64,000 nucleotides of DNA from Blastococcus aggregatus. Lineage in GTDB: Bacteria > Actinomycetota > Actinomycetes > Mycobacteriales > Geodermatophilaceae. This document shows positions 3,270-15,617 of this stretch, in pieces. Made by a program: the position numbers and the translations under genes. The stretch spans positions 124,001 through 188,000 of the forward strand of contig NZ_OBQI01000005.1 in the NCBI RefSeq assembly GCF_900221005.1, in the 5' to 3' direction. Position 1 is the first letter of the stretch; each line of letters opens with the position of its first letter. The notes beneath the pieces were generated by a model, which saw nothing but the letters and a program-made list of their open reading frames with translations, did not search any database and was not told the DNA's origin.

Positions 3270-5954
3270 TCACCTTCCCGTGGCGGCCGCAACCGCCTGC
3301 TCGCCGGCCTGCAACGCGGCGGGGATCCCCGCAGCATCGGTGCCGCCCCCCTGGGCGACGTCGGCCTTTCCGCCACCCCGACCGCCGACGGGACCCGCCG
3401 CGGCCTTCAGCACGTCGTTGGCCGACAGCCCCTGCGCCAGGGCGGCCGGGTTCAGCGCCGCGACGAGAGCCACTTTGCCACCGGACTCCGAAGCCAGCAG
3501 CACGACCGACGGGCGCTCGCCCAGCCGGCCCCGGACGTCGAGGGCCAGGGTGCGCAGGTCGCCGCCCGCGAGCCCGGCAGGCGCGCCGGTGACGACGGCC
3601 ACCCCGCCCACGTCGCGGGCGTCGCCGGCCAGCTGCCCGGCGACGGCGAGGCTCTGCTGACCGCGCAGCTCCGCCAGCTCCCGGTCGACGTCGCGCAGCC
3701 GCGAGAGCATGCCGCCGACCCGCTCGACCAGCCCGTCCTGCGGGGTCTTGAGCAGCTCGGCGAGCTGGCGGACCAGGTCGCGCTCGCGGGCCAGGTAGCG
3801 GAAGCCCTCCAGGCCCACCACGGCCTCGACGCGGCGCGAGCCCGAACCGACCGACGACTCCCCGGTCAGCGCCAGCGTGCCGATCTGCGCGCTGCCCCGG
3901 ACGTGGGTGCCACCGCAGAGCTCGCGCGACCACGGGCCGCCGATCTCCACCACGCGGACCTGCTCGCCGTAGGTCTCGCCGAACAGCGCCAGGGCGCCGA
4001 AGGCGCGCGCCTCGGGCAGCGTCATCCACGACGCGGACACCGCGTGGTCCGCGCGGACGGCGGCGTTGGCGACGTCCTCGATGTCGGTGCGCTGCTGCGC
4101 GGTGAGCGCGCCCTGCCAGGCGAAGTCCAGCCGCAGGTAGCCGGGGCGGTTGTAGGACCCCGACTGCAGCGCCTGCGGGCCGAGCACCTGGCGCAGCGCG
4201 GCGTGCACCACGTGGGTGCCCGAGTGCGCCTGGCAGGCCGACAGCCGCCACTCCCGGTCCACCTCGGCGGTGAGCTCGGCGCCCTCGGTCAGCTCGCCCT
4301 CGAGGACGCGCACCTGGTGGGCGACCAGGCCCTTGACCGGGCGCTGGACGTCGATGACCTCGGCCCGGCCGCCGTCCCAGGTGAGGATGCCGGCGTCGGC
4401 GACCTGCCCACCGGACTCGGCGTAGAACGGCGTGCGGTCGAGGACCACGCGGCTGATCTCGCCGGGTCCGACCGGGCGCGCGGCGGCGTCGTCGTCCTCG
4501 TCGGAGACGATGCCGAGCACCCGGGAGTCGGTCCGCAGGGTCTCGTAGGCCTGCCAGTCGGTGGGCCCGTGGTCGGCGAGCAGCCGCCGGTAGGCCAGGA
4601 CGTCGACCGAGCCGGTGCGCTTGGCGCGGGCGTCGGCGCGGGCCCGGTCGCGCTGCTCCTTCATGAGCGCGCGGAACCCCGCCTCGTCGACGGTCACGCC
4701 CTGCTCGGCGGCCATCTCGAGGGTGACGTCGATCGGGAAGCCGAAGGTGTCGTGCAGGCTGAACGCCTGCTCGCCCGAGAGCGACGGGGTGCCCGCCTGC
4801 TTGGCCTGCGCGACCGCGGTGTCGAACAGCGCCGTCCCCGAGGTGAGGGTGCGGCGGAACGCCTCCTCCTCGGCGTAGGCCACCGAGGAGATGCGGGCGA
4901 AGTCGGTGGCCAGCTCCGGGTAGCTGGCGCTCATCGCGTCGCGGGAGACCGGCAGCAGCTCCGGCAGCGTGGCGTCCTCGACCCCGAGGAGCTTCATCGA
5001 GCGGACGGCGCGGCGCAGCAGCCGGCGCAGGATGTAGCCGCGGCCCTCGTTGCCCGGCGTGACGCCGTCGCCGATGAGCATGAGACCGCTGCGCACGTGG
5101 TCGGCGACCACGCGCAGGCGCACGTCGGCCTCGTGGTCCTTGCCGTAGGTGACCCCCGCGAGCTCGGCGGCCCGCCGCAGCACCGGCGCGACCTCGTCGA
5201 TCTCGTACATGTTGTCGACGCCCTGCAGCAGGAAGGCCACCCGCTCCAGGCCCATGCCGGTGTCGATGTTCTTGTTGGGCAGCTCACCGACGACGGTGAA
5301 CTCCTCCTTGCTGCGCACGTCGGTCAGCTCGTACTGCATGAAGACGAGGTTCCAGATCTCCAGGAACCGGTCGCCGCCGGTGTCCACCAGCGGGCCGCCC
5401 TCGGGGCCGAACTCCGGGCCGCGGTCGTAGTAGATCTCCGAGCACGGGCCGCCGGGGCCGGCCGCCCCGGTGTGCCAGTAGTTGTCCTTCTTGCCCAGCC
5501 GCTGGATGCGCTCGACCGGCAGGCCCGCGATGCGGTGCCAGGCCTCGGCGGCCTCGTCGTCGTCCAGGTAGACCGTCACCCAGAGCCGGTCGGGGTCGAA
5601 GCCCAGACCGCCGGCCTCGACCGAGCCGGTGAGCAGCTCCCAGGCGAGCTGGATGGCGCCTTCCTTGAAGTAGTCGCCGAAGGAGAAGTTGCCGTTCATC
5701 TGGAAGAACGTGCCGTGGCGGGTGGTCTTGCCCACCTCCTCGATGTCGAGGGTGCGCACGCACTTCTGCACGCTGGTGGCCCGCGCGAACGGCGCGGGCT
5801 CGCGGCCGGTCAGGTACGGGATGAACGGCACCATGCCGGCCACGGTGAACAGCAGCGAGGGGTCCGGGGACACCAGCGACGCGCTGGGGACGACGGTGTG
5901 GCCGCGCGTGGCGAAGTGCTCCAGGAAGCGGCGGCGGATCTCGGCGGTCTGCAT
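3270..5954 (-). CDS. alaS: Alanyl-tRNA synthetase
   Basis: This class II synthetase charges tRNA-Ala and edits mischarged Ser and Gly. At 894 residues it is full length. The aminoacylation core at the N-terminus (RRRFLEHFATRGH, RTLDIEEVGKTTRHGTFFQM) is followed by the editing domain, with HSGTHVVH near residue 573 and CGGTHV near residue 678 carrying the zinc-type ligands, and by the C-terminal oligomerisation domain. It starts at ATG 5954, and its stop lies only a few bases from the chosen ruvX start. About 60 bases separate it from the small membrane gene upstream. No odd features seen. Confidence 0.96.
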   Translation of the reverse strand: MQTAEIRRRFLEHFATRGHTVVPSASLVSPDPSLLFTVAGMVPFIPYLTGREPAPFARATSVQKCVRTLDIEEVGKTTRHGTFFQMNGNFSFGDYFKEGAIQLAWELLTGSVEAGGLGFDPDRLWVTVYLDDDEAAEAWHRIAGLPVERIQRLGKKDNYWHTGAAGPGGPCSEIYYDRGPEFGPEGGPLVDTGGDRFLEIWNLVFMQYELTDVRSKEEFTVVGELPNKNIDTGMGLERVAFLLQGVDNMYEIDEVAPVLRRAAELAGVTYGKDHEADVRLRVVADHVRSGLMLIGDGVTPGNEGRGYILRRLLRRAVRSMKLLGVEDATLPELLPVSRDAMSASYPELATDFARISSVAYAEEEAFRRTLTSGTALFDTAVAQAKQAGTPSLSGEQAFSLHDTFGFPIDVTLEMAAEQGVTVDEAGFRALMKEQRDRARADARAKRTGSVDVLAYRRLLADHGPTDWQAYETLRTDSRVLGIVSDEDDDAAARPVGPGEISRVVLDRTPFYAESGGQVADAGILTWDGGRAEVIDVQRPVKGLVAHQVRVLEGELTEGAELTAEVDREWRLSACQAHSGTHVVHAALRQVLGPQALQSGSYNRPGYLRLDFAWQGALTAQQRTDIEDVANAAVRADHAVSASWMTLPEARAFGALALFGETYGEQVRVVEIGGPWSRELCGGTHVRGSAQIGTLALTGESSVGSGSRRVEAVVGLEGFRYLARERDLVRQLAELLKTPQDGLVERVGGMLSRLRDVDRELAELRGQQSLAVAGQLAGDARDVGGVAVVTGAPAGLAGGDLRTLALDVRGRLGERPSVVLLASESGGKVALVAALNPAALAQGLSANDVLKAAAGPVGGRGGGKADVAQGGGTDAAGIPAALQAGEQAVAAATGR

Positions 5955-6014
5955 CAGGTCTTCTCAGGTCGGCGGACGGTTGCCGGGCCGGGACGGAACC
6001 CCGGACCGGGGAGA

Positions 6015-6296
6015 TCAATCGGCGCTGTGCGCCCCGCGGCCGGGCAGCTGCACCTGGTCGCCGGTCGGCAGCGGGGAGTCCAGGCCCGTGCCGGCACGCA
6101 GCTCCTGCTCGCGCTCGGCCATCGCGTCGCGCACGTCGGCGCCGAAGTCACCGATGGCGTCGGCCAGGTCGCGCAGCCCGTCGGCGATGGAGGCGCCGAT
6201 GCCCGCGGGGGTCATCTTCTCGGCGGCCCGGCTCAGCTTGCGGACGACGAGCGCGCCGATGGTGATGCCCATGGCGAGCCAGAACAGCCGGCGCAT
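6015..6296 (-). CDS. Small membrane protein (DUF6167-like)
   Basis: This 93-residue protein starts MRRLFWLAMG at ATG 6296. It has one N-terminal hydrophobic helix (about 4-18) and then an amphipathic, acidic soluble tail (DGLRDLADAIGDFGADVRDAM). The start codon overlaps the stop of the DUF948-like gene by one base (TGATG), so it is coupled to that gene. The pair upstream of alaS is conserved in actinobacteria and is usually annotated as unknown. I infer that it forms a membrane complex with the DUF948-like protein; no enzymatic motif is visible. Confidence 0.75.
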   Translation of the reverse strand: MRRLFWLAMGITIGALVVRKLSRAAEKMTPAGIGASIADGLRDLADAIGDFGADVRDAMAEREQELRAGTGLDSPLPTGDQVQLPGRGAHSAD

Positions 6297-6721
6297 CAGG
6301 CGCTCCGCCGCGCGGCACGACGGGCGCGGCGCGCCTCCTTGTCGCGGCGGGCGGCCTCGGCGAGCGCCTCGCCCTCGCGCTTCTTCCGGGTCGCGCTGCG
6401 CACGCCGTAGGAGAACGCGGCGACCTTGATCAGCGGGCTGCCGAGCGTGGCGGCCACGACACTGGTCAGGGCGGCGACGTTGCTGGAGACGTTCGCGGCG
6501 TTGCCGGTGATGTCGTCGACCCGCTCGAGGTTGCTGTTCACGTGGGTCACCGTCGTGCTGGCCTGGCTCAGGATCGGCGCGCTCTGCTCGCGCACCTGCC
6601 GGATGGTCAGCGTGGTCTCGTCGAGCGTGCGACCGAGCTTGAGCAGCGGGACGGCGACCAGCACCACCAGCAGCACCAACGCACCGGCTGCGACCAGCCC
6701 GGCGATCTCTCCTGCGGACAC
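6296..6721 (-). CDS. DUF948-family membrane protein
   Basis: The protein has 141 residues from GTG 6721, preceded by GAGGAG at good spacing. An N-terminal transmembrane helix (about 5-28) is followed by a long heptad-like region (TLDETTLTIRQVREQSAPI and onwards) typical of DUF948 proteins, and by a very basic C-terminal tail ([11 protein letters not shown]). DUF948 proteins resemble general-stress or methyl-accepting coiled-coil proteins, but their role is not established. It sits between rarA (140 bases upstream, with a terminator in the gap) and the small membrane gene. Confidence 0.8.
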   Translation of the reverse strand: MSAGEIAGLVAAGALVLLVVLVAVPLLKLGRTLDETTLTIRQVREQSAPILSQASTTVTHVNSNLERVDDITGNAANVSSNVAALTSVVAATLGSPLIKVAAFSYGVRSATRKKREGEALAEAARRDKEARRARRAARRSA

Positions 6722-6861: not shown

Positions 6862-8199
6862 TCAGCGGCTGCGCCGGAGGATCGCCCGGAGCTTGGCCAG
6901 CCGTTCTCCCAGCCTCGCCTCCGCACCCCGGCCGGTGGGCCGGTAGTAGTCCCTGCCGACGAGCGCGTCCGGCGGGTACTGCTGCGGGACGACGCCGTCG
7001 GGATGGCTGTGCGGGTACACGTAGGTCTGGGCGTGCCCCAGCTTCTTCGCCCCGGCGTAGTGCCCGTCGCGGAGGCCCGGCGGCACCGGGCCGGCCAGGC
7101 CCGCGCGGACGTCGGCCACCGACTCCCCCATGGCCTTGGTGACGGCATCGGACTTGGGCGCGGTGGCCAGGTGGACGACGGCCTGGGCGAGCGGGAAGTG
7201 CCCCTCGGGCATCCCGATGAAGGCGACGGCGTCGGCGGCCGCGACCGCGGTCAGCAGTGCCGTCGGGTCCGCCATGCCGATGTCCTCGCTGGCGGAGATG
7301 ACCAGCCGGCGGGCGATGAAGCGCGGGTCCTCCCCCGCCTCCACCATGCGGGCCAGGTAGTGCATCGCGGCGTCGACGTCGCTGCCCCGGATGCTCTTGA
7401 TCAGCGCGCTGGCGACGTCGTAGTGCTGGTCGCCCTGCCGGTCGTAGCGCACCGCGGCCTGGGCGACGGCCGTCTCCAGCGTGGCCAGGTCGATCTCCGT
7501 CGCGCCCACCGCCTGCGCGGCCCCGGCGGCGGACTCCAGCGCGGTCAGCGCCTTGCGGCCGTCCCCGCCGGCGATGCGGACCAGGTGCTCCTCCGCCTCC
7601 GCGTCCAGCGTGACGGCGCCGTCGAGTCCCCGGTCGCTGGTGAGCGCCCGGTGCAGCAGCGTCCGGACGTCGTCGTCCTCCAGCGGCTGGAGCGCCAGGA
7701 CCAGGCTGCGGGAGAGCAGCGGGCTGACGACCGAGAAGAAGGGGTTCTCGGTGGTCGCGGCGATCAGGCTCACGATCCGGTCCTCGACCGCGGACAGCAG
7801 GCTGTCCTGCTGGGTCTTGGAGAAGCGGTGCACCTCGTCGATGAACAGGACGGTGCGGCGGCTGGAGAAGGTGAGCTCGCGCTTGGCGTTCTGGATCACC
7901 GCGCGCACCTCCTTCACGCCGGAGTCCAGGGCCGAGAGCTGCACGAACTGCCGCTTGGTGGCCAGGGAGATGACGTGGGCGAGGGTGGTCTTGCCCGTGC
8001 CGGGCGGGCCGTAGAGCACCAGCGACATCGGCTCGTCGGACTCCACCAGCCGGCGCAGCGGCGCGCGCGGGCCGAGCAGGTGCTGCTGGCCGACGACCTC
8101 GTCCAGCGCCCTCGGGCGCATCCGGACGGCCAGCGGCGCGCCCGGGTCGACCGCCGGGGCGCCGCTCTCGTCCGGCGCCGGGTCGAACAACGTCGTCAC
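6862..8199 (-). CDS. rarA: Replication-associated recombination protein RarA (MgsA/WRNIP1 family AAA+ ATPase)
   Basis: RarA is a clamp-loader-like AAA+ ATPase that acts at stalled replication forks. The 445-residue protein starts at GTG 8199 (VTTLFDP). Walker [10 protein letters not shown] is at 64-72, Walker B FIDEVHRF around 119-126, and sensor-like [11 protein letters not shown] follows. The C-terminal part has the MgsA tetramerisation signatures ([38 protein letters not shown]). It is transcribed divergently from the aldo-keto reductase with only 36 bases between the starts, so the promoters must overlap. Confidence 0.95.
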
Positions 8200-8235
8200 G
8201 GTTCCCGACGCTACCCGCGGGGCACGACACCCCTC

Positions 8236-9093
8236 GTGCAGCAGCGACGCATCGGGGACATGACGGTCAGCGCCATCGGGCTGGGGGCCATGCCGCTCTC
8301 CACGAAGAAGCCCCGGCCCTCCCGGGAGGAGGCCGTCGGCGTCGTGCACGCCGCGCTGGACGCGGGGGTGACGCTGATCGACACCGCCGACGCCTACTCC
8401 CGGGACGAGGCGGAGTTCGGGCACAACGAGTCCCTCGTGGCCGAGGCGCTGGCCGCCTACGGCTCCGGCGCGGCCGACGTGCTGGTGGCGACCAAGGGCG
8501 GGCACACCCGGTCGGGCACCGACTGGGGGCTGGACGGGTCGCCGGTGTACCTCCGCCGCGCGTGCGAGGACTCCCTGCGCCGGCTGGGTGTCGAGGCGAT
8601 CGGGCTCTACCAGTTCCACCGGCCCGACCCGCGAACTCCGTGGGAGGAGTCGATGGGCGCCCTGCGGCAGCTCGCCGACGACGGGCTGGTCCGGATGGTC
8701 GGCGTCTCCAACGCCGACATCGCGCAGATCGACGCCGCCCGGGCGATCGTGGGCGAGGCCTTCGTGAGCGTGCAGAACCAGTTCTCCCCCGGCTGGCGGC
8801 ACTCGGCCGACGAGCTGGCGCACTGCGCGGCGCACGGGCTGGCGTTCCTCCCGTGGAGCCCCTTCGGCGGCGTCGGTGCCGCCGGTTCGCTCGACACGAC
8901 GGCACCGGCGTTCGCCGAGGTGGCCGCCGAGCTCGACGTCTCGGTGTACCGCGTGACCCTGGCGTGGCACCTCGCGCAGGCCGACGTCGTCGTCCTCATC
9001 CCCGGCGCCTCGCGGGCCGCGTCGATCCAGGACTCGGCCGCCGCTGCCGAACTGCGCCTGAGCCCGGAGCAGCTGGCCCGGCTGGCCGGCTGA
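8236..9093 (+). CDS. Aldo/keto reductase
   Basis: This NAD(P)H-dependent oxidoreductase has the (beta/alpha)8 AKR fold; its substrate is unknown. The GTG start at 8236 gives 285 residues. The catalytic tetrad can be read as D49, Y54 (DTADAYS), K87 (VATKGGH) and H128 (YQFHRPD). The C-terminal cofactor segment [13 protein letters not shown] is present. It lies divergently from rarA and 59 bases before the membrane cyclase gene, so it may share transcription with the signalling genes downstream, but no functional link is evident. Confidence 0.88.
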
Positions 9094-9152
9094 GCCCGGG
9101 GGCGGGCCAAAGTCCCTGGTGCCCGGCGCGGGGCCCGGCGCAGACTCGGCCG

Positions 9153-10637
9153 GTGGCCCCGGCCGGGCTGTTGCCCTCCGACGCTCCGGGCCGCGGACGC
9201 CTCCAGCGCGTCCGCGGTGCTGCGCTGTCGCTCGGCCCCGGCGGGGCGCTGGTGGTGCTGGGCCTGTGCCTCCCGCTGGTCGGGCTGGTCCTGCTGCTGC
9301 GCCCCGACCTCACCGCCGTGCAGTGGCGCGGACCCGACCTGCACTTCGCCGTCTTCCTCGTGGTGGGCGGCCTCGCGGCCAGCCTCTCGGTGGTCGCCGG
9401 GGAGGCGGCCAAGCTCCGGGGTGACGCCCGGGTGTTCCTGCTCTCGCTGGCCTTCCTGACCACCAGCGGCTTCATGGCCCTGCACGCGGCCGGCACCCAG
9501 CACGTCCTCACCCACCGGGCGCTGCCCGGGTTCACCGTGGCGATCTCGGTGGGCCTGCTGCTGGCCGCGCCACTCGCGCTGGCCTCGGCCTACGTGGACA
9601 TCCGGCCGTGGGCCGGTCCCGCCGTCATGCGCGCCCGGCCGTGGCTGCGCGCCGCCGTCGTCGCGGCGCTGCTGCTCTGGGGGATCTGGTCGCTGGGCAA
9701 CTGGCCGCCGATCGACGTCATCACCGGCGAGGGACCCAGCGGCGACGCGCTGGAGATCGCCGCCGCGACGGCCGCCCTGGCCTACGCGACCGGCGCGGTC
9801 CGCCTGTGGTGGGTGCACCGCGAGCAGCCCGGCTTCCTCGTCCTCAGCCTGGTGGCCTGCTACGGACTGCTGGCCGAGGCGCTGCTGGGCGTGGCCGTCG
9901 CCGGGGAGCGCAGCTTCCACCCCTCCTGGTGGGTGTGGCACGCCCTGATCGTCGTGGGGTTCCTGCTGGTCTTCGTCGCCGCCCAGCGGGAGTGGCGGGA
10001 GGAGCGCTTCCGGCCGCTCTACCTGCCGGGCACGCGCGAGCAGCGGCAGGAGGTGTCCGTGCTCGTCGGCGACCTGGCCGGCTACACCGGCTTCGCCGAG
10101 GACCGCGACCCCGCCGAGGTGGCCGCGATGCTCCGCGCCTACTACGCGGTCGCCGCGCCGCTGATCTCCCGCCGGTTCCGGGGCGAGGTGGAGAAGTTCG
10201 CCGGGGACGGCATCTTCGCCACCTTCAACCGGCGCGGCGACCAGCCCGACCACGCCCGCCGGGCCGTCGAGGCGGCGGCGGCGCTGCAGGCCGAGGTGGC
10301 CCGCATCCGGCAGTCGCACGAGGACTGGCCGGGGCTGCGGGTCGGGGTCAACAGCGGCCCGGTCGTCGTCTCCGAGATGGGGGGCCGCGGGTACGTCGTC
10401 TACGCCGCCGTCGGCGACACGGTGAACGTGGCCGCCCGGCTGCAGGCGGCCGCCCCGGTCGGCGGCGTCCTGGTCGGCGCGCGGACCCGCGCCCTCATCG
10501 GCGAGGACGCCCCGCTCGCACCGACGCCGCAGCTGCGGGTCAAGGGCAAGACCGACCCGGTGGCCGCCTACCTGCTGCAGCTGCCCGTGCCCCGGCCCGC
10601 GCCCGGCACAGGCGTGCCGCACCGCAGATCCCGCTGA
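9153..10637 (+). CDS. Membrane-bound class III adenylate/guanylate cyclase
   Basis: The product is predicted to make cAMP (or cGMP). The N-terminal 290 residues hold about seven hydrophobic helices, beginning [20 protein letters not shown]; the C-terminal 200 form one class III catalytic domain starting near residue 298. Metal-binding aspartates are seen in [12 protein letters not shown] and [11 protein letters not shown], and the transition-state Asn/Arg in VNVAARL. The GTG at 9153 is my best start, but no clear ribosome site is seen and an internal start is possible. It is followed within 22 bases by a CBS gene, then by a kinase with a cyclic-nucleotide-binding domain on the other strand, which suggests the second messenger is used locally. 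Nucleotide specificity cannot be read with confidence. Confidence 0.85.
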
Positions 10638-10659
10638 CCCGACCGACGAGGAGCCCGAG

Positions 10660-11100
10660 ATGCCCCCCTCCCCCTCCGCCCCCGACCTCACCGTCCGCGA
10701 GGTCATGCGCCCGGCGGTGACCACGGTGGAGCGCACCGCGCACGTCGCCGCGGCCGCCTACCTGATGAAGAGGTCGCACGACAACGCACTCGTGGTGCTC
10801 GCCGACAGCTCCTCCCGGGTTCCGGTCACCCTGGTCTGCGACGGCGACGTCACCCAGGCCGTCGCCGACGGGCGCGATCTCGAGCAGATCCGGCTGGTCG
10901 ACCTGGACCTGCCGGTGATGGTGGGGCTGTCGCCGGACACCCCCGTGCCGGAGGCGGCCGAGCGGATGCTGCAGGCGGCGGTCGCCTACGCCCCCGTCGT
11001 GGAGGACGGCGCGCTGGTGGGGCTGGTGGACCTGGCGGCGCTGACCCGGGGGCTGCTCATCGGGCGGCGGCAGGACCGGCTGGCCGACGCGCGGCCCTGA
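10660..11100 (+). CDS. CBS-domain protein
   Basis: This 146-residue soluble protein consists of a CBS pair: TVREVMRPAVTTVERTAHV in the first repeat and MVGLSPDTPVPEAAERML in the second. CBS pairs bind adenosyl ligands such as AMP, ATP or SAM. The ATG at 10660 has GAGGAG upstream. It follows the membrane cyclase by 22 bases and is likely co-transcribed. Its 3' end overlaps the histidine kinase gene on the other strand by 44 bases (11057-11100), so the two mRNAs are antisense there. Confidence 0.88.
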   Translation: MPPSPSAPDLTVREVMRPAVTTVERTAHVAAAAYLMKRSHDNALVVLADSSSRVPVTLVCDGDVTQAVADGRDLEQIRLVDLDLPVMVGLSPDTPVPEAAERMLQAAVAYAPVVEDGALVGLVDLAALTRGLLIGRRQDRLADARP

Positions 11101-12466
11101 GCTCCGCCGGGTCGTCGTCCCCCCGCGGCAGCACGACCCGTGCGCGGGTGACCCCGTCGGCCGAGGTGAGGGTCAGCTCGCCGTGGTGCTGCTGGGCGAT
11201 CACGGCCAGCGCGGTGGTCAGGCCGAGCCCGGTGCCCTCCCCGACGGGCTTGGTGGTGAAGAAGGCGTCGAAGACGCGCTCGGTCACCTCCGGCGGGACC
11301 GGCGGGCCGGTGTTCTCGACGTCGACGAGGACCCGGTCGCCGGCGTCGGCGGTGCGGACGGTGATCGTGCCGTCGGTCCCCACGGCGGCGACCGCGTTGT
11401 CGAGCAGGTTGATCCAGACCAGGGCCAGGTCGGCCGGCCGGCCACGGACGGTGCGGGCGTCCGGGGAGAGGTCGCGCACCACGCGGACGCCGGGTGGGAG
11501 CTTGTGCCGCAGCAGCACCAGCGCCTGCTCCAGGCCGGCGTGCAGGTCCACCTCGGTCAGCCCCTGGTCGGCGGCGTAGGCGAGCGGGCGGACCCCGGTC
11601 ACGATCCGGGAGAGGTGCTCGGCTCCGGTGAGGAGCTCCTCCAGCAGCCTGCCCACCTCGTGCTCGCGGAGGAACCGCCGCAGCTCGGCCGCCCGGTGCT
11701 CGCCCGGCAGCGCGGCGAGCGCCACCTCGAGCGCCGGCGCGGCGATCCCCGCGGCGGCCAGCTGCTCGGCCGCGGCCCGGCCGGTGCCCGGTGCGAGGCG
11801 GGCGAGGACGCCGGCCAGCGCGGTGGCCGCGTCGGCACGGGCGAGGGAGTCCGCGGGCGCCGGGCCGGCCAGCTCGTCCAGCGGCCCCGTACGCCGCTGC
11901 TCGGTCAGCAGGCGGCGCAGCCGGGCGGCGCTGCGCGACACCGCCGCCGCCGGGTTGTTGATCTCGTGCAGCAGGCCCGCGGCGAGCCCACCGAGGGCGG
12001 CCATCCGCTCCCGCTGGCGGAGCAGCCCCTCCTCGCGCGCCAGGCGGCGCGCGGTCGCCTGCAGCAGGGCCCGCGCCGAGTGCGGATGGGCCAGCAGGCG
12101 GTCGAGGGCGTCGACGTCGATGCGCTGCACCCGCGCCGCGGTGCGCGCCCGCACGGTCGCCGACCGCGGCACCCCCTGCAGCACGCCGAGCTCGCCCAGC
12201 AGGTCGCCGCGGGAGCAGAGGTTGAGCAGGACCGCCGGCCCGCCCCCGCCGCCCCGGGTGACCTCCAGCTGCCCGTCCAGCACGACGAGCATGGCGTCGG
12301 CCGGCGCGCCCTCGGCCATGAGCACCGCGCCCGCCGGCACCTCGAGCGTCCGCCCGCCGGCCGCCAGCGCGGCGACGTCGTCGTCGGGCAGCTGGGCGAA
12401 CAACGGCGAGGTGCGCAGCGCGGCCACGACGTCGTCGGCCGGGACGTCGTCGACCGGGCCGGTCAC
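11057..12466 (-). CDS. Sensor histidine kinase with N-terminal cyclic-nucleotide-binding domain
   Basis: The 469-residue protein has a cNMP-binding domain (about 15-135) with the phosphate-binding cassette signature GDLLGELGVLQGVPRSATV, including the Glu and Arg expected to contact cAMP. A HisKA dimerisation domain follows (H-box LLHEINNP, phospho-His near 169), then a GHKL ATPase (N-box NLLDNAVAAV, G1 VENTGPPVPPE, G2 EGTGLGLTTAL). There is no transmembrane segment, so the sensor is cytosolic. The GTG start at 12466 overlaps the stop of the response-regulator/flavoprotein gene as GTGA, so both are co-translated and almost certainly form a two-component pair. The intact cassette argues for real cyclic-nucleotide control of phosphorylation; that control is inferred. 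Confidence 0.9.
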   Translation of the reverse strand: MTGPVDDVPADDVVAALRTSPLFAQLPDDDVAALAAGGRTLEVPAGAVLMAEGAPADAMLVVLDGQLEVTRGGGGGPAVLLNLCSRGDLLGELGVLQGVPRSATVRARTAARVQRIDVDALDRLLAHPHSARALLQATARRLAREEGLLRQRERMAALGGLAAGLLHEINNPAAAVSRSAARLRRLLTEQRRTGPLDELAGPAPADSLARADAATALAGVLARLAPGTGRAAAEQLAAAGIAAPALEVALAALPGEHRAAELRRFLREHEVGRLLEELLTGAEHLSRIVTGVRPLAYAADQGLTEVDLHAGLEQALVLLRHKLPPGVRVVRDLSPDARTVRGRPADLALVWINLLDNAVAAVGTDGTITVRTADAGDRVLVDVENTGPPVPPEVTERVFDAFFTTKPVGEGTGLGLTTALAVIAQQHHGELTLTSADGVTRARVVLPRGDDDPAELRAARRPAGPAAAR

Positions 12467-14103
12467 CGCCCGGCCAGGCGCTCGTGGGCGAAGCTCACCG
12501 CCATCGCGCCCTCCCCCACCGCCGTGGCGATCCGCTTCACCGAGCCGGAGCGCACGTCACCGGCGGCGAACACCCGAGGCACCGACGTCTCCAGCGGGAG
12601 GGGCGGCACCGGCAGCGGCCAGTCCGGCGGGGACGCCCCCAGGTCCGCGCCGGTGAGCACGAAGCCGCGGGCATCCCGCCGCACCGCACCGTCCAGCCAG
12701 CCCGTGCGCGGCGCCTGCCCGATGAAGGCGAAGACTGCGTCCGCCGGCACCTCCCGCTCCTCGGTGCCGCTGCGCAGCCGCAGCGCCTCCAGCCGCTGCG
12801 TCCCGACGGCTCCGGCCACCTCCGTCCGCGGCGCGACCGTGATCCGGTCGGAGGCCTCGATCCGGTCGCTGAGGTAGCGGGACATGGTGCTGGTGAGGTC
12901 CGGGCCGCGGACGAGCAGCGTCACCTCGGCGGCGAAGGCGGAGAGGAAGACCGCGGCCTGACCGGCGGAGTTCCCGCCGCCCACCACGAACACCCGCCCT
13001 CCGGCGTGGTCGGCGGCCTCGGCCCGCCCGGCGCCGTAGTAGACCCCGCGGCCGGAGAGCTCGGCCGCGCCCGGGACCGACAGCGTGCGGTAGGTGACGC
13101 CGGAGGCGATGACGAGAGCCGAGGCGCTGACCTCCCCGCCGTCGGCGAGCCTGAGCACGGAGTAGGGATCGGCCCGCAGCAACCCCACCGCCTCCGCGGG
13201 CACGAGCATCTCCGCGCCGAACCGGGTCGCCTGCTCCCGGGCCCGGAGGGTGAGGTCGGCGCCGGAGAGCCCGACGGGGAAGCCGAGGTAGTTCTCGATC
13301 CGGCTGGTCGTGCCCGCCTGCCCGCCGGGCGCGTTGCACTCGAGCAGCAGCGTCGCCAGGCCCTCGGAGGCGCCGTAGACCGCGGCCGCCAGCCCCGCGG
13401 GGCCGGCTCCGGCGATGACGAGGTCGTAGGCGTCCCGCTCGGCCCGCACGTGCAGTCCGATGCGGGCGGCGAGCTGGTGCAGGTCCGGGGTCGTCAGCAC
13501 CTCGCCGTCGTCGAGGACGACGACCGGCAGCTCGCCGGCACCGGCGCCGGCGAACTCGAGCAGCTCGCGGGCCTGTCCGTCGGCCTCCACGTCCATCCAC
13601 CGGTAGGGCACGAGGTTGCGGGCGAGGAACTGGCGCAACTCGTGGGCCTCTGCCGACCAGCGGTCACCGATCAGCCGCAGGTTCGCGACCGGCGCCGGGC
13701 GCCGCCAGGTCTCCAGCAGGTCGTCCAGCACGGGGTAGAGCCGGTCCTCGGGAGGGTCCCAGGGCTTGAGGAGGTAGTGCTCCACGCCGGCGTCGTTGAT
13801 CGCCCGGATGGCGGCATCGGTGTCGGCGTAGGCGGTGAGCAGCACCCGCCGGGCGTCGGGGTAGAGCCGCCGCGAGGCGCTCAGCAGCTCGACCCCGGTC
13901 ATGCCGGGCATGCGCTGGTCGACCAGGAGGAGCGCGACCGGCTCCTCGCGCAGCCGCAGCCGGCGCAGCAGGTCCAGCGCCTGGTCGCCCGAGGGGGCGG
14001 TGAGCACCTGGTAGTGCTCGGCGTAGCGGTCGCGCAGGTCCCGCTCGACCGCCGCGAGCACGGGCGCGTCGTCGTCCACGGCCAGCAGCACCGGTCGGCC
14101 CAT
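12463..14103 (-). CDS. Response regulator fused to thioredoxin-reductase-like flavoprotein (no CxxC)
   Basis: The 546-residue fusion starts at ATG 14103 with GGAGGAG upstream. Residues 1-125 are a receiver domain with D62 in VDQRMPGM as phospho-acceptor, T90 and K113. Residues 140-215 resemble a glutaredoxin-type fold without cysteines. Residues 225-546 are a thioredoxin-reductase-like FAD/NAD(P)H domain: GAGPAGLAA (232-240), PGGQAGTTSRIENYLGFP, GGGNSAGQA (375-383) and the C-terminal FAD motif RVFAAGDVR. Where thioredoxin reductases carry CATC, this protein reads YYGAGRAEA (about 355-363). C256 is the only cysteine in the whole protein, so dithiol chemistry is impossible. Fused regulators of this class are known in actinobacteria, but their reaction is not. 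It is coupled to the cNMP-binding kinase. Confidence 0.88.
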   Translation of the reverse strand: MGRPVLLAVDDDAPVLAAVERDLRDRYAEHYQVLTAPSGDQALDLLRRLRLREEPVALLLVDQRMPGMTGVELLSASRRLYPDARRVLLTAYADTDAAIRAINDAGVEHYLLKPWDPPEDRLYPVLDDLLETWRRPAPVANLRLIGDRWSAEAHELRQFLARNLVPYRWMDVEADGQARELLEFAGAGAGELPVVVLDDGEVLTTPDLHQLAARIGLHVRAERDAYDLVIAGAGPAGLAAAVYGASEGLATLLLECNAPGGQAGTTSRIENYLGFPVGLSGADLTLRAREQATRFGAEMLVPAEAVGLLRADPYSVLRLADGGEVSASALVIASGVTYRTLSVPGAAELSGRGVYYGAGRAEAADHAGGRVFVVGGGNSAGQAAVFLSAFAAEVTLLVRGPDLTSTMSRYLSDRIEASDRITVAPRTEVAGAVGTQRLEALRLRSGTEEREVPADAVFAFIGQAPRTGWLDGAVRRDARGFVLTGADLGASPPDWPLPVPPLPLETSVPRVFAAGDVRSGSVKRIATAVGEGAMAVSFAHERLAGR

Positions 14104-14219
14104 GACGGCTCCTCCGCGCGGGGGCGAGGTCGGGCACCGCGGGAGCCGCAGGTCCACGCGGAGCACCGCGGACGCTACGCCCGGCGGTCGGCGCTGACCA
14201 GCGACTCGACGCCCGCGTC

Positions 14220-15548
14220 TCAGCCGGCGACGGCGAACAGCGGCCAGGTGCCGGGCACACCCCGCAGCGGGCGCGTCCCCCGGTCGGCGAAGGCCAGCCC
14301 CGAGCCGATGACGAGGTCCTTGACGGTGCCGGACACCAGCACCTCGCCCGGCTCGGCCTCGGCCATCACCCGTGCGCCGATGTGCACGGCGAGCCCGGCC
14401 ACCTGACCGCCGGCGAGCCGCTGCACCTCCCCGGCGTGCACCCCCACCCGCAGCCGCAGCCCGGCGCCGTCGGTGGCCTCGCGCAGTGCCAGCGCGCAGC
14501 GGATCGCCCGGATGGGGCCGTCGAAGGTCGCCAGCAGGCCGTCACCGGCGACGTCGACCTCGACGCCACCGAAGCGGAGCAGGGCGTCGCGCGCCAGGCC
14601 GAGGAAGCGCTCCCGGATGCCGGCCCACACGGCGTCACCGACGTCCGCGACGAGTTCGGTGGATCCGGCGACGTCCACGAACAGGACGGTGGCCAGCACG
14701 GTGCTCACCGGCGTCGGCGCCGGGCGGTACCCGGTCAGGAACTCCTCGATCTCGGCCAGCGGGGTCTCGGTGTCGCCGACGAAGAAGAGGTGGTCGGCGC
14801 CCTCGAGCTCGACCAGCCGCGCGTCGGGGAGGTGCTCCGCGAGGTAGCGGGCCACGGCGATCGGCACCATCCGGTCGCCGCGGCGGTGCAGCACGAGCGC
14901 CGGTACGCGGACGGCCGGCAGCACGTCCCGCATGTCGAGATCCTGGTAGTGACCCACCAGCCCCCGGGCCATGCCGGGGCTGGCCCCCAGTCGCTGTAGG
15001 GTCCCCCACCACGCCCGGAGCGCGGGGTCCCGCCGGCGGCTCGGCGCCCAGGCGCTGAGCCCCGCACCCTCGCCCCAGTGCTCGATGAGCCGGTCCAGCA
15101 TCCCGGCCATGACCCCGGCGTCGACCCCCGAGGGGAACCCGGGCGCCTCGGTGATCCGTGGAAAGGCGCCGTAGAGCACGAGCGAGGAGACCCGCTCGGG
15201 GCGCTGCGCGGCGAACAGCATCGCCATCGCCCCGCCCTCCGAGATGCCGAGGATGGCCGCGCGCTCCGAGCCGGCGGCGTCCATCACGGCCGCGAGGTCG
15301 GCGGTGCGCTCCTCGAGCGTCGCGGGGCCGGGTACGGGGTCGGACAGCCCGGTGCCCCGCTTGTCGAACAGGATCAGCCGGGTGAACTCGGTGAGGCGCT
15401 CCATGAACGCCCGCAGCTCGGGCTCCTGCCAGTTCCAGTCGAGGTGCGAGATGAACCCCGGGGCGGCCACCAGGTCGAGCGGCCCCTGCCCGACCACCTG
15501 GTAGGCGATGGACAGGCTCCCGCTGCGGGCGTAGCGCGTCGGCACCAC
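14220..15548 (-). CDS. Alpha/beta hydrolase fused to class III nucleotide cyclase
   Basis: Residues 1-265 are an alpha/beta hydrolase with nucleophile elbow GISEGG (S103), acid in RRGDRMVP and catalytic His in EGADHLFF. Residues 280-442 are a class III cyclase with metal-binding Asp in VLFVDVAGST and VAGDGLLATF. The layout resembles mycobacterial LipJ (Rv1900c). The start is uncertain: GTG 15548 matches the usual VPTRYARSG beginning, but an ATG at 15602 would add 18 residues. It lies 116 bases upstream of the response-regulator fusion on the same strand, so it may feed cyclic nucleotide to the kinase pair. The hydrolase substrate is unknown. Confidence 0.86.
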   Translation of the reverse strand: MVPTRYARSGSLSIAYQVVGQGPLDLVAAPGFISHLDWNWQEPELRAFMERLTEFTRLILFDKRGTGLSDPVPGPATLEERTADLAAVMDAAGSERAAILGISEGGAMAMLFAAQRPERVSSLVLYGAFPRITEAPGFPSGVDAGVMAGMLDRLIEHWGEGAGLSAWAPSRRRDPALRAWWGTLQRLGASPGMARGLVGHYQDLDMRDVLPAVRVPALVLHRRGDRMVPIAVARYLAEHLPDARLVELEGADHLFFVGDTETPLAEIEEFLTGYRPAPTPVSTVLATVLFVDVAGSTELVADVGDAVWAGIRERFLGLARDALLRFGGVEVDVAGDGLLATFDGPIRAIRCALALREATDGAGLRLRVGVHAGEVQRLAGGQVAGLAVHIGARVMAEAEPGEVLVSGTVKDLVIGSGLAFADRGTRPLRGVPGTWPLFAVAG

Positions 15549-15617
15549 GCCGCGAGTCTGGCACCGGGGCCGCCCCAGCGGGCCCCTCCCGCCCACGCCC
15601 ATGTGGAGTTGGCGGGG

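Follow-up and report, generated by a model that had tools for sequence, protein, structure and literature searches.

A class III nucleotide cyclase stays beside a CNB-histidine kinase and its receiver-flavoprotein partner in one clade of Geodermatophilaceae and Nitriliruptoria

In this study, we show that a locus of the soil actinobacterium Blastococcus aggregatus, encoding a soluble histidine kinase with a cyclic nucleotide-binding (CNB) domain and, translationally coupled to it, a flavoprotein with a receiver domain (REC-flavoprotein), belongs to a clade in which this pair keeps a class III nucleotide cyclase as a near neighbor. The locus lies at positions 9153-15548 of the window, by which we mean the whole stretch of 64,000 nucleotides analysed (RefSeq assembly GCF_900221005.1, contig NZ_OBQI01000005.1, positions 124,001 to 188,000). 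Every clade locus whose kinase is readable (18/18) holds such a cyclase within 6 kb, where 0.16 would be expected from genome density, in a comparison of loci searched with a hidden Markov model (HMM) built from the loci themselves with genomes counted by PF00211 matches; the clade loci are related by descent and are 18 loci, not 18 separate events. The clade, which joins Geodermatophilaceae and Nitriliruptoria, makes up 19 of the 115 rows of the REC-flavoprotein tree, with an SH-aLRT support of 100. Within it the flanking genes, the gene order and the type of cyclase change while a cyclase stays.

Family-wide, a REC-flavoprotein match (E up to 1e-60) is present in 78/112 genomes, and 14 of 15 orthologous places were sampled, the remaining one (G034) being at a contig end. 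Thirteen of these 14 orthologous loci (76-88% identity) have a kinase, and none of the 13 lacks a class III cyclase within 6 kb. The window's own chromosomal site (rarA..aspS) is shared by four of them, which carry the same membrane cyclase as the window, CYC1; the other nine have a large cyclase instead, which in the two representatives scanned is a cyclase-AAA-TPR protein. The large cyclase adjoins and converges on the kinase in six loci (L044-L047, L050, L051) and lies on the same strand, 0.8-5.1 kb off, in L042, L043 and L049. Moreover, in a second class, the Nitriliruptoria, a cyclase lies 0.25-1.9 kb from the pair in four genomes (L094, L095, L255 and L256; L255 and the named L102 appear to be one contig). 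In L255/L102 and L256 this neighbor is CYC1 including its membrane part, about 40% identical, placed upstream on the same strand and not convergent as in the window, and in one genome (G912) the only class III cyclase in 4.6 Mb is found 1.9 kb from the pair. The neighboring cyclases are thus of membrane, cyclase-AAA-TPR, LipJ-like and small soluble types. When flanks were compared in 11 blocks with a simple gene caller, they were shared only between L038 and L040, both at the site of the window, and within a Modestobacter trio (L044-46); the genes common to L042 and L043 lie within the block as drawn. In the source genome (G000, 4.62 Mb), two of the four PF00211 matches flank the kinase and one of the three PF00027 (CNB) matches is this kinase, so that the gathering of cyclase and CNB genes at the locus is more than chance would give.

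The two proteins of the pair have the parts that a two-component system needs. The Pfam scan of the kinase found CNB and HATPase_c domains and no further domain, and an H-box, HEINNP (DHp), was read from the sequence. Its most hydrophobic 19 residues (236-254, mean 1.74) are Ala-rich, fall after the H-box and before the ATPase domain, and are judged not to be a transmembrane segment. The phosphate-binding cassette, GELGVLQGVPRSATVRA, has the same Glu and Arg as the canonical one, both invariant in 12 aligned kinases and retained in 18/18 clade kinases. The receiver domain has the phospho-acceptor Asp62, Lys113 and the acidic pair Asp10/Asp11, invariant in 16 aligned proteins, to match the H-box His and ATPase domain of the kinase. 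The stop codon of the REC-flavoprotein gene overlaps the start of the kinase gene in a GTGA, and the same junction occurs in 13/13 further clade junctions examined (of 17). These results agree with a preliminary description of the locus, which had proposed a kinase with an apparently intact cNMP (cyclic nucleotide) domain, lacking a transmembrane sensor and coupled through GTGA to a regulator-flavoprotein.

The REC-flavoprotein consists of a receiver domain, a glutaredoxin-like domain and a flavoprotein part resembling thioredoxin reductase (TrxR), with the FAD and NAD(P) motifs GAGPAGLAAA and GGGNSAG. The TrxR fold is recognized by PF07992 and by Foldseek, in which the predicted structure (pLDDT 73.9, from 16 sequences) gave a TM-score by target length of 0.84 to 3cty_A and 5mh4, AhpF 4o5q being first by E-value. 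However, the alignment puts YGA-GRA opposite the CAVC of 7aaw and 4gcm, a CxxC at this site is absent from all 35 aligned REC-flavoproteins, the glutaredoxin-like domain has no Cys pair, and there is one Cys in 546 residues. A function as thioredoxin reductase (TrxB) was therefore rejected, and proteins of this type should not carry that annotation. Likewise, the redox signalling that had been suggested at first is unlikely to run through thiols, since the CxxC is missing. No solved chain spans the REC and TrxR parts among the matches listed (59 sequences, E up to 1e-10), and none spans the CNB and kinase parts among the best 60 of 120 matches. In Mycobacterium sp. IS-1496 (L139:9958-11604) a CNB domain is fused in front of a TrxR-like flavoprotein in one open reading frame (ORF), with the cassette Arg apparently lost.

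The preliminary description had further taken five genes within 6.4 kb as one system, and all five are present at the positions it gave, with the expected domains (ORFs and Pfam matches). Their co-occurrence in relatives holds for the cyclase and the pair; the other two genes, for a LipJ-like hydrolase/cyclase fusion and a two-CBS-domain protein, are lineage-specific, and a conserved five-gene system is rejected. The LipJ-like fusion adjoins the pair in 3/6 loci at the window's chromosomal site (the window, L040 and L082) and in L042 elsewhere, and no remnant of it was seen between the aminotransferase and REC-flavoprotein genes in L038 and L041. A CBS match also accompanies the pair in L038-L043 and L049, and no CBS gene was found in the six loci of Geodermatophilus/Modestobacter type (L044-L047, L050, L051). 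Thus the link between cyclic nucleotides and two-component signalling gains comparative support, and the earlier proposal is partly supported: the unity of the five genes and thiol redox do not share in that support. The fourteenth orthologous locus, L048, has a run of 685 N (5807-6491) just downstream of the REC-flavoprotein gene, over about half of the kinase's place, and its readable remainder gave no kinase match; a true loss of the kinase was rejected, as the N run makes the locus not assessable. An in-frame TGA in its REC-flavoprotein gene was also dismissed, the ORF (L048:6801-8444) being open and the TGA upstream of the likely ATG. In the Nitriliruptoria a truncated globin gene lies between the kinase and the soluble cyclase in L094 (5012-5476) and L095 (4138-4530; PF01152, 2.4e-14), and the kinase of L256 is followed by a globin-like ORF (11079-11366) that appears to be truncated.

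From the parts, motifs, coupling and conservation of the pair and its co-location with cyclases, we lean towards a cyclase-linked two-component module, for which we infer the ligand, the direction of signalling and the substrate of the enzyme. A cyclic nucleotide, probably cyclic AMP (cAMP), would be made by a class III cyclase (chiefly the membrane CYC1 in the window, the cyclase-AAA-TPR protein or a smaller soluble cyclase in relatives), and the soluble kinase would bind it in its CNB pocket; this step we infer from co-location and the intact pocket. Nucleotide binding would alter the autophosphorylation or phosphatase activity of the kinase, and the phosphoryl group would be transferred to the phospho-acceptor Asp in the REC domain that the coupled gene encodes. 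Adjacency and GTGA coupling suggest this pairing by phosphotransfer, and the intact phosphorylation motifs are consistent with it. Phosphorylation of the REC domain may then make the FAD/NAD(P)H enzyme joined to it more or less active, as their covalent fusion suggests; the enzyme has no redox cysteine pair, and therefore its electrons would go to something other than thioredoxin. The direct fusion of a CNB domain to a TrxR-like enzyme in L139, and the fused family described in the available part of an earlier survey (Kannan et al., 2007, PMC2246266), support such a module.

CYC1 has seven hydrophobic stretches followed by its cyclase domain at residues 296-475, and conserved His and Trp in the membrane part (HF, LHA, SWWxWH; six aligned sequences) give a hint of a sensor. 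MASE3 matches below threshold were found in its two Nitriliruptoria relatives, and the Pfam scan gave none for the CYC1 of the window. It is only tentatively that we extend the module to a full circuit with an enzyme and not a gene as its output, in which a membrane cyclase with conserved His/Trp would act through cNMP and the kinase on an NAD(P)H flavoprotein gated by phosphorylation, and in which the globin encoded within this group of genes in Nitriliruptoria could be the electron acceptor, giving redox, nitric oxide or O2 feedback on the cyclase.

Several observations weigh against the cyclase-linked module. At the locus two units converge, cyclase-CBS on the + strand and hydrolase/cyclase - REC-flavoprotein - kinase on the - strand, and for this reason the five genes are not one operon. 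An intact cassette would in itself be no proof of cNMP binding. CYC1 retains the residues that we take to be the class III catalytic set (two metal-binding Asp, the Lys, and an Asn and an Arg for the transition state); where an Asp or Thr presumably selects the base it has an Ala (YAAVG), and therefore it may use either ATP or GTP. In its relatives of L255 and L256 this site is an Asp and the Lys is replaced by Gln; in the cyclase-AAA-TPR type (L044-L047, L050, L051) the Lys is Gln or His; and the LipJ-like domain, which keeps the metal Asp and the Arg, has Asp for the Lys and His for the Asn. The product and even the activity of the neighboring cyclases must thus be regarded as uncertain. The soluble cyclases of L094 and L095 have the canonical Lys and Asp (that of L095 also has an HNOBA match below threshold). 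Beyond the clade, 36/50 kinases with the cassette Glu and Arg (E+R) have no cyclase within 6 kb, the figure for Chloroflexota is 1/11 with a cyclase vs 0.79 expected, and the Acidimicrobiia kinases of L099 and L101 have lost the cassette Arg yet have a cyclase directly downstream.

The alternative that survives best is that the pair is a self-standing cNMP-responsive two-component system reading the global cAMP pool, to which nearby cyclases are helpful without being part of it. cAMP diffuses, which fits this alternative, as does the large share of intact-cassette pairs standing alone outside the clade, which means that the pair does not need a nearby cyclase. We nevertheless hold it to be the minority case, because every assessable clade locus (18/18) has kept a cyclase near despite rearrangement and replacement. 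Outside the clade, a cyclase within 6 kb accompanies 14/50 E+R kinases against 2.09 expected, with 9/30 in the Acidimicrobiia (1.18 expected), 3/7 in Nitriliruptoria outside the clade (0.08 expected) and, in the remaining two loci besides the Chloroflexota, a cyclase in L098 and none in L100. In L098 (9925-13587), L099 (1717-4191) and L101 (9101-11845), from Chloroflexota and Acidimicrobiia, the gene immediately following the pair on its strand encodes a cyclase-domain protein, which in L098 and L099 carries an ATPase domain as well.

It is improbable, in our view, that the CNB pocket binds another ligand, such as a different nucleotide or a redox metabolite, so that the kinase would be a redox or energy sensor and the cyclases a parallel output or feedback target. 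The loss of the Arg beside an adjoining cyclase in L099 and L101 speaks for it, as does the truncated globin gene that separates the kinase from the cyclase in L094 and L095; and, according to the part of the survey available (Kannan et al., 2007, PMC2246266), an altered cassette can go with binding of heme or another ligand by the CNB domain. Against it, E and R stand in 18/18 clade kinases, like PKA and the HisK-family consensus given in the same part of that source. The family also has another form of the pair (L052-L061, L064-L066, L070, L071), with a degenerate kinase cassette, such as SGAVQFY.. or AGGFRAW.., in 15/15 fetched loci with a kinase, and therefore this kinase probably senses something else. 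A chance or hot-spot neighborhood of unrelated signalling genes, to which the converging genes and the coming and going of the LipJ-like and CBS genes might point, is strongly disfavoured by 18 loci observed vs 0.16 expected, with different flanks and in two classes, even though loci of one clade are not independent.

Whether an intact cassette predicts a cyclase was weighed across all loci. Kinases without E/R have a nearby cyclase in 1/28 (L101, Glu kept and Arg lost) and loci with no readable kinase in 2/24 (L068, and L230 at a contig end), genome density being lacking for 16/28 and 17/24 of these. The lower-identity Geodermatophilaceae loci that have lost the cassette Glu/Arg have a nearby cyclase in 0/15, and the six family loci that have a REC-flavoprotein but no readable kinase, L048 among them, in one (L068). 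By Fisher's test the difference is 32/68 E+R vs 1/28 without (p 1.5e-5), or 14/50 vs 1/28 outside the clade (p 0.008). On the tree, cyclase presence changes at least 15 times over the 115 rows, and most of the cassette-less kinases fall in one 23-row clade, none with a cyclase. Only 3 independent cassette-cyclase pairs lie on well supported branches, which leaves a sign test uninformative; the rule was therefore rejected, and the association is not established beyond common descent.

The prevailing view is that bacterial cAMP acts via transcription factors and that two-component systems perceive their stimuli directly. If the module is real, the two would act in series, ending in an enzyme, in at least two bacterial classes. 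The CNB-histidine kinases, of which 56 NR and 11 GOS sequences were listed in 2007 (Kannan et al., Genome Biol 8:R264, PMC2246266), would gain a partner and a likely source of their signal, within a defined lineage. In the part of that account available, the HisK family resembles the window kinase in having a CNB domain followed by a histidine-kinase-type ATPase, with the consensus cassette GELSLLTGGPRSATVRA, and, unlike the window locus, comes with no mention of a REC-flavoprotein partner or cyclase neighbors. The same part describes 38 NR and 70 GOS fusions of CNB to pyridine-nucleotide oxidoreductases (Bact_Pyrredox), with a tandem CNB and an amino-terminal pyridine nucleotide-disulphide oxidoreductase of the same broad fold as our flavoprotein; they are one polypeptide, whereas the window system would be a phosphorelay between two proteins. 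With low-Mr thioredoxin reductase and AhpF the flavoprotein has the fold and FAD/NAD(P) motifs in common (TIGR01292 at 202.5 bits, below the cut-off of 343.45), and differs in its added REC domain and in its cysteines. The LipJ-like fusion matches the LipJ-type lipase/adenylate cyclase (NF058673) over its full length at 406.7 bits, below the cut-off of 800, departs from it in the two substitutions given above, and is not conserved in the module. No account of the REC-flavoprotein/kinase pair or of its cyclase link was found in the literature searched, most subscription journals being outside its coverage; the parts are known and, as far as our searches go, the cyclase-linked module is undescribed.

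Cyclases at the loci were found with the locus-built HMM, not Pfam's, at a threshold of 1e-5; it recovers the four PF00211 places of the window genome and 15/15 earlier genome-search places inside the fetched stretches, and a weak match in L194 (E 6e-4) was not counted. The E+R pattern was widened by one letter after the first count, L256 (GELGLVSGQPRSVRI) having both residues and failing the first pattern. L082, L096, L102 and L231-L234 (duplicates, named copies or truncated) were omitted from the cyclase counts, and L228, L230, L246, L254 and L266 (short contigs) additionally from the tree test; L097, with no REC-flavoprotein seen, and L099, whose REC-flavoprotein is cut by the contig end, were never counted. 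Besides the orthologous places, 20 lower-identity places and the top 40, 20 and 20 of three further match lists were sampled, most partial matches and the places sampled before being left out. Gene positions in the loci are from tblastn or HMM matches, as the simple gene caller gave wrong-strand ORFs in several.

Table 1. Features of the Blastococcus aggregatus locus, in window positions
Feature	Position	Strand	Details
CYC1, membrane class III nucleotide cyclase	9153..10637	+	494 aa; PF00211 E 3.2e-16
Two-CBS-domain protein	10660..11100	+	146 aa; PF00571 2.1e-13; starts 22 nt past CYC1
Soluble CNB-histidine kinase	11057..12466	-	PF00027 2.1e-16, HATPase_c 8.1e-19, H-box HEINNP
CNB domain of kinase	12089..12343	-	residues 42-126
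Phosphate-binding cassette GELGVLQGVPRSATVRA of kinase	12146..12196	-	Glu92, Arg101
Overlap of converging CBS-gene and kinase 3' ends	11057..11100		44 nt
GTGA overlap, REC-flavoprotein stop / kinase start	12463..12466	-	
REC-flavoprotein	12463..14103	-	546 aa; PF00072 9e-17, PF07992 9.1e-34
GVYYGAG at thioredoxin reductase CxxC site	13027..13047	-	without cysteine
LipJ-like alpha/beta hydrolase + divergent class III cyclase domain	14220..15548	-	PF00561 1.3e-18, PF00211 9.9e-5

The - strand genes are transcribed in the order LipJ-like hydrolase/cyclase, REC-flavoprotein, kinase. The ORF of the REC-flavoprotein runs to 14166, and the ATG at 14103 is preceded by GGAGGAG; an upstream ATG at 15602 is a possible alternative start of the LipJ-like fusion. 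The nearest named locus is that of Blastococcus sp. DSM 44205 (L082), whose kinase, REC-flavoprotein, LipJ-like protein and CYC1 are 92-97% identical. In Blastococcus sp. TML/M2B (L041) the REC-flavoprotein and CYC1 matches are split over two frames each (7037-10024 and 10489-11902), likely by frameshifts from sequencing error or decay.

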